A stretch of 64,000 bases of DNA, taken from contig WGLN01000013.1 in assembly GCA_016125555.1 (NCBI GenBank), positions 25,546 to 89,545 of the forward strand, read 5' to 3'. This document shows positions 62,103-63,134 of this stretch, one piece after another; within the stretch, counting starts at the first letter, position 1, and each line of letters begins with the position of its first letter. Position numbers and translations under genes: made by a program. The notes under the pieces were generated by a model. The model ran no database searches. It was not told where the DNA came from and saw nothing but the letters and a program-made list of their open reading frames with translations. Origin of the DNA: Porphyrobacter sp. (lineage in GTDB: Bacteria; Pseudomonadota; Alphaproteobacteria; Sphingomonadales; Sphingomonadaceae).

Positions 62103-63134
62103 TCAGGCCCCCGCGTTGGTCTGTTCGAGGATCCATTCGGGGATCGCCTCCTGGCGCAGGTCGGCGAGCTGTAGCCCGAGGGCGCGCACCGCGTCATAGC
62201 GCTCGCGCGGAGCATAGTCCGCGGGGCGCTGGACGAACAGCTTGCCGCCCGCTTCCGAGAGGATGTTGAGGCCGCGCACCCCGTCGCTGCCGCTGCCGGT
62301 CAGCAGGCCGCCGACGGCGCCCGTCCCGCTGCGCGCGAGCGAGCCGAACAGCAGGTCGGCGGAGGGGCGGCAACCATTGACCGGATCGCGATCGAGCAGC
62401 CTCAGACGCGGCGGGGTGCCCGCCTCGACGACGACATGGCGCGAGGCGTCGTGCGCCAGCCACACCTTCCCGGGCTCGAGCGCGACCCCGTCGGTCGCAT
62501 CGGCGAGCTGGCAAGGGAGCGAGGCACGCATCGCCCGCATCGCGTTTTCGACCGCACCCGGCTCCGCATCGAACAGCACGATGGTCGGCGGGCAGGCGGC
62601 GTCGTAGGCGGCGAGCACCTGGCGTGCCGCCTCGATCCCCGCCGCTCCGCAGGCGAGCGCCACGACCCGGCCGTCGCTGCGGTAGGCAGGCGTGCCGTCC
62701 GCCCCACCCTCGGCCCCGCCGCCGGGCTGGAGTTCGCCGCTCGCCGCCCGCAGGACGATGTCGCCGAGCTGGCGGACGGTCGCGTCGAACTCCTCGCGCG
62801 AGGAGTGCAACGGCTTGGGGAAGCAGTGGACCGCGCCCAGCTCGAGCGCACGCCGCGCGGTGCCGGTGCCGGCCTGGGTGATGCTGGAGAGCATGATCAC
62901 CGGCAGCGGCTGGGTGGACATCAGTTCCTCGAGAAACTCCATCCCGCTCTTGCCGGGCATCTCGACGTCGAGCGTCAGCACGTCGGGCTTGAGCTTGTCG
63001 ATCTGTTCGCGCGCATCGTCGGCGTTCTTGGCCACCCCGCACACGGTAACGCCTTTGGCGTTGTCGAGAATATCGCAGAACAGCGCGCGCATCGCTGCGG
63101 AATCGTCGACAACCAGCACTCGAACATCGGACAT
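62103..63134 (-). CDS. cheB: CheB-like protein: receiver domain plus degenerate methylesterase domain
   Basis: MSDVRVLVVDDSAAMRALFCDILDNAKGVTVCGVAKNADDAREQI...LTLDVEMPGKSGMEFLE...VNGCRPSADLLFGSLA...LLTGSGSDGVRGL. Confidence 0.9.
   Translation of the reverse strand: MSDVRVLVVDDSAAMRALFCDILDNAKGVTVCGVAKNADDAREQIDKLKPDVLTLDVEMPGKSGMEFLEELMSTQPLPVIMLSSITQAGTGTARRALELGAVHCFPKPLHSSREEFDATVRQLGDIVLRAASGELQPGGGAEGGADGTPAYRSDGRVVALACGAAGIEAARQVLAAYDAACPPTIVLFDAEPGAVENAMRAMRASLPCQLADATDGVALEPGKVWLAHDASRHVVVEAGTPPRLRLLDRDPVNGCRPSADLLFGSLARSGTGAVGGLLTGSGSDGVRGLNILSEAGGKLFVQRPADYAPRERYDAVRALGLQLADLRQEAIPEWILEQTNAGA

Follow-up and report, generated by a model that had tools for sequence, protein, structure and literature searches.

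Near one end of the window, the whole 64,000-nucleotide stretch of Porphyrobacter sp. DNA analysed here, an open reading frame at 62103-63134 encodes a protein with the domain order of CheB, a receiver followed by a methylesterase domain (Pfam Response_reg, 3e-20; CheB_methylest, 2.8e-24). Its best solved relatives are the CheB proteins of Pectobacterium (6ymz) and Salmonella (1a2o), and it matches the NCBIfam CheB subfamily models below their cut-offs (204 versus 293 bits and 161 versus 342 bits). We refer to the protein as dead CheB. The features of the locus are:

62103..63134, minus strand: dead cheB paralogue, 343 aa; start codon ATG at 63132-63134, stop codon at 62103-62105
62769..63134, minus strand: receiver (REC) domain, residues 1-122 (Pfam Response_reg 5-110 and predicted fold)
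63102..63107, minus strand: acidic pocket D10 D11, invariant in 116 non-redundant relatives
62967..62969, minus strand: phosphoacceptor D56, invariant in the 116 relatives
62814..62816, minus strand: switch lysine K107 in CFPKP, invariant in the 116 relatives
62106..62672, minus strand: CheB_methylest domain, residues 155-343 (Pfam 157-306; Foldseek to 1chd and 3sft)
62646..62648, minus strand: Gly163 where the nucleophile Ser164 is expected (alignment with E. coli CheB)
62568..62570, minus strand: Asp189 where His190 is expected (same alignment)
62283..62285, minus strand: Asp284, equivalent to triad Asp286 and kept (same alignment)
62199..62231, minus strand: QRPADYAPRER, replacing the conserved ...SCVVFGMPR segment (alignment)
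63346..64000, plus strand: divergent chemoreceptor (mcp), truncated where the contig stops; its 3' part probably lies at one end of contig C17

The chemoreceptor gene is divergent from dead cheB and runs off the contig where the window ends. Comparison with unbroken clusters (G010, L044) indicates that the remainder of the gene is probably found at one end of C17, a contig with the gene order mcp-stas-cheA-cheR-cheB-cheD-cheY-cheW-mcp, an intact CheB included. The receptor part at the C17 end terminates in ...GEDDWSEF and is followed by stas-cheA-cheR-cheB-cheD-cheY-cheW; two receptors of the corresponding cluster in G003 (L049) also end in DWSEF. The genome encodes two other CheB domains, on C17 and C20, each near a CheR and both with the complete Ser-His-Asp triad. 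The check for other CheB and CheR genes proposed in the preliminary description of this DNA therefore found two intact CheBs and two CheRs. FlhA gave a strong match in the genome, and a search for CheZ gave no match at E<=1. On the same contig as FlhA, a sub-threshold FliM match (12 bits) lies at G000:C9:95846-96118, which may mean that this lineage has a divergent FliM. Convergent with dead cheB is a 1073-aa open reading frame (58811-62032, plus strand) with a repetitive passenger-like region and an autotransporter-beta-domain-like C-terminus; a 787-aa open reading frame (56361-58724, plus strand) resembles TonB-dependent receptors, its N-terminal part being secretin/STN-like.

Relative to E. 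coli CheB, Ser164 is replaced by Gly163, Thr165 by Ala164, His190 by Asp189 and Met283 by Ser281, with Asp286 kept as Asp284. The altered motifs read ALACGAAG (62637-62660) and LFDAEPG (62556-62576) on the minus strand. The preliminary description had reported both the serine and the histidine motif as lost at 62560-62680, a stretch that spans the two bar a few bases, and the triad aspartate as retained; all three assignments are borne out. A phmmer alignment with Salmonella CheB (1a2o) has a register identical to the E. coli alignment, and places neither a serine nor a histidine at the catalytic positions. The equivalent of His256 is also changed, and the E. coli segment SCVVFGMPR, conserved in the intact CheBs compared, has become ADYAPRERY. 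The substrate site, described earlier as kept, is retained in part: HRPSVD appears as CRPSAD, and the RPS motif is two residues shorter in a pair of distant orthologues (L024 and L078; genomes G030 and G132). The receiver is intact as claimed, with D10, D11, D56, S83, T86 and K107 all present.

We built an AlphaFold2 model of dead CheB from 23 orthologues (mean pLDDT 87; residues 139-149 form a floppy linker). In the predicted structure, Gly163 occupies the strand-helix junction that forms the nucleophile site, and the next core strand ends at Asp189. Foldseek searches with the model ranked full-length CheB highest and also matched 1chd (TM 0.84) and 3sft (TM 0.89, both by target length), which are structures of the catalytic domain on its own. 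Both CheB domains are thus predicted to keep their fold; with a pTM of 0.60, their position relative to each other is not reliable. Misalignment is ruled out by the repeated alignments, the phmmer register and the predicted fold. Sequencing error, local decay and chance are ruled out by the loss being common to 35 full-length orthologues in the genus, of which all 35 lack His190 and 34 lack Ser164. From sequence and predicted structure, the protein almost certainly has no methylesterase catalysis.

The sphingomonad family yielded 116 non-redundant triad-defective relatives; a family-wide search of 401 genomes, in which the best loci were read, added further genera. The triad is broken in all of them, most often as SQD (44), GDD (35), SND (9) or DHD (6), with rarer forms making up the rest. 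Ser164 is kept in 63 relatives, all without His190, and His190 in seven, all without Ser164. The receiver residues D10, D11, D56 and K107 are present in 116 of 116, and T86 in 111. The che cluster with the dead CheB usually encodes an intact Ser-His-Asp CheB too. The pseudoenzyme assignment of the preliminary description is well founded, with two of three triad residues gone here, no complete triad among the relatives and an intact CheB in the same cluster. We calculated a phylogenetic tree of 77 sequences, 42 of them defective, after removing the columns around the Ser164 and His190 positions. All 42 defective sequences formed one clade separate from intact CheB (bootstrap/SH-aLRT 100/100; 200 of 200 bootstrap trees), which rules out scattered losses from active CheBs. 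The data neither establish nor reject a tree in which the Ser-less group branches first, as sister to all other members (AU p 0.515; 215 of 1000 bootstraps), so that a single loss followed by a Gln-to-His return is possible. The sequences thus allow two independent routes of loss, His-first and Ser-first, as a possible history, with the single loss and return as the alternative.

Within the genus, an orthologue of dead CheB occurs in 37 of 114 genomes (E<=1e-60) and the partner CheB in 33, with both present in 32. G034 is an exception to this pairing (genome 77% complete), and G023 (72% complete) has the active CheB only. Across the family, 93 loci encode one dead and one intact CheB together. 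Named relatives from the genome scan belong to Erythrobacter, Porphyrobacter, Altererythrobacter, Aurantiacibacter, Alteraurantiacibacter and Novosphingobium. Synteny with cheA is kept, with dead cheB at either end of the cluster: in many genera it follows cheW, and in Erythrobacter and Novosphingobium types it sits at the opposite end in divergent orientation. Outside the family, the best 20 inspected matches, from other alphaproteobacterial families, all have the intact SHD triad.

To compare constraint on the two proteins, we used 70 thinned loci, each encoding a dead and an active CheB. Receivers have a mean pairwise identity of 0.66 in the dead and 0.62 in the active protein, versus 0.42 and 0.59 for the catalytic domain. 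NG86 dN/dS, which has comparative value only in these GC-rich, diverged genes, is 0.24 for the dead receiver and 0.56 for the dead catalytic domain, against 0.34 and 0.38 in the active protein. This indicates that the dead receiver is guarded at least as strictly as that of the active enzyme, and that the dead catalytic domain is relaxed and evolves faster than its active counterpart, yet is still constrained.

We consider it very likely that dead CheB has a conserved non-catalytic function. With some preference over other readings, we interpret it as a CheB paralogue of early origin whose catalysis was lost and whose lasting role is that of a phosphorylatable, non-catalytic response regulator in the che cluster. 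The paralogue would have split from active CheB early in the sphingomonad family, losing methylesterase/deamidase catalysis and retaining its phosphorylatable receiver in a flagellar chemotaxis cluster. CheA phosphorylates the receivers of CheY and CheB. If it also phosphorylates D56 of dead CheB, the protein would compete with CheY and active CheB for phosphoryl groups and drain them, and so act as a phosphate sink for a cell in which CheZ is not detectable. We give this sink or competitor mechanism an even chance; its sink part, one of the two roles suggested in the preliminary description, fits the conserved receiver, the cheA linkage and the missing CheZ. Elsewhere, a lack of phosphatases has been taken to favour sinks (PMC10782961). 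In favour of the preferred reading, G077, which lacks the partner CheB, has a truncated, receiver-less dead copy; against it, the dead protein is intact in G030 (L048) and G132 (L078), where the partner che cluster is gone and another CheA/CheW pair is present, and it is kept in the draft genome G114, which has one CheW and in which no CheA was found. In the G077 locus (L083; G077:C4:108000-124000, 7631-8404), unrelated DNA replaces most of the dead CheB receiver. Classic phosphate sinks are CheY-like and consist of a single domain. Here the second domain is still folded and has a dN/dS below 1, which suggests that it too has some role and speaks against a plain sink.

A second part of the preferred reading, less certain than the sink part and less well supported, gives the dead domain such a role: in the phosphorylated, opened form it might occupy receptor or array sites and slow demethylation by active CheB. 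CheB opens once phosphorylated, and its receiver-linker junction then binds the pentapeptide of the receptor (PMC8609364). The strongest rival takes this as the whole function, with the phosphorylated dead domain docking on receptor methylation sites or tethers and shielding them, a regulated antagonist of demethylation and not a sink. We regard this as rather doubtful. The retained fold and the constraint on the catalytic domain are in its favour, as are invariant Asp286 and mostly kept R257, P258 and S259 among the 116 relatives. The probable C-terminus of the divergent receptor, DWSEF, also follows the pattern seen in CheR/CheB tether pentapeptides, NWETF for example (PMC7698151), and a catalytically inactive mimic of phosphorylated CheB has served for receptor-binding measurements (PMC8609364). 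Against it, the equivalents of R134 and H138 in the modelled pentapeptide pocket of Salmonella CheB are not kept, which is weak evidence since this site is poorly conserved even among CheBs; changes also affect His256 and the GMPR segment close to the active site, and the RPS motif is partly deleted in the two distant orthologues. For the receptor-binding adaptor suggested in the preliminary description, constraint on the catalytic domain likewise speaks in favour and the altered pocket residues speak against. A broader version, tentative but a little easier to accept, is a dedicated sphingomonad anti-CheB: a phospho-switched dead paralogue, retained from an early point in the family's history, that limits demethylation or drains CheA~P, sets the adaptation gain, and had its catalysis disabled through residue losses that differ between lineages.

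The remaining rivals fare worse. A redundant duplicate decaying without function would explain the faster change of the catalytic domain, the truncation in G077 and the lack of a dead CheB beside a similar che cluster in G318 (L190). Such a relic is very improbable: across the genus and many genera of the family the reading frames are intact, at 52-87% identity, the phosphorylation residues are invariant, the receiver is more conserved than the active copy's and both domains are under constraint. New chemistry, in which Asp189, or Ser164 where other branches retain it, builds a different active site, would draw on the aspartate found at the His190 position in 39 of the 116 relatives (nearly uniformly in the Erythrobacter-type branch), on invariant Asp286 and on the 63 proteins with Ser164. 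We consider it very improbable, as the replacements vary by branch (Q, D, N, P, R, G, E, A), the serine loop is variable and no second conserved set of catalytic-looking residues is present. That the protein is still a methylesterase through another arrangement of residues is extremely improbable: the protein retains Asp286 and some of the substrate motif, but the elbow lacks a nucleophile, a general base is likewise missing, and the cluster encodes an intact CheB besides.

Dead CheB resembles the E. coli and Salmonella enzymes (1a2o, 1chd) in its REC, linker and CheB_methylest layout, phosphorylation residues, Asp286, predicted fold and che-cluster location, and differs in lacking Ser164, His190, Met283, His256 and the GMPR motif and in coexisting with an intact CheB. 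Among phosphate-sink receivers, CheY1 of Sinorhizobium is one example. The CheY-like domain of CheA in Helicobacter pylori has been shown to be another (discussed in PMC10782961). Dead CheB shares with them a phosphorylatable receiver linked to CheA in a genome without detectable CheZ; unlike them, it carries a folded dead enzyme domain and is a putative sink. Response regulators with degenerate outputs exist, for example inactive GGDEF/EAL proteins. These also retain an enzyme output domain without catalysis under receiver control, but the output here is a CheB domain. CheV has been discussed as a sink as well. This receiver-containing, CheA-linked, non-enzymatic chemotaxis protein is also discussed as an adaptor (PMC4742279). 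Dead CheB descends from CheB, unlike CheV with its CheW domain. We found no earlier report of the dead CheB family in the open-access literature searched, outside which most subscription papers lie.

Judged from the alignments and models, dead CheB is a conserved, catalytically broken paralogue of sphingomonad chemotaxis, a larger finding than first stated. CheB is the textbook adaptation enzyme and is usually assumed to be active wherever it is annotated. With a clade-wide dead paralogue in flagellar che clusters, automatic annotation may mis-state methylesterase content, a risk that covers many Erythrobacter, Novosphingobium and related genomes. Dead CheB is also a tractable example of how a response regulator of the enzyme type can become a non-catalytic regulator.

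At one further locus (L178; G307:C1:440000-457000, 5092-9798), a dead CheB with an S-P-D triad follows a chemoreceptor whose N-terminus looks globin-like. The locus contains neither cheR nor an active cheB, and in its 563-aa CheA-like open reading frame, which also precedes the dead CheB, the H-box phosphohistidine is apparently replaced (FRAVHSIKGG to LEAVATHLGKE). It is possibly an all-dead signalling module.
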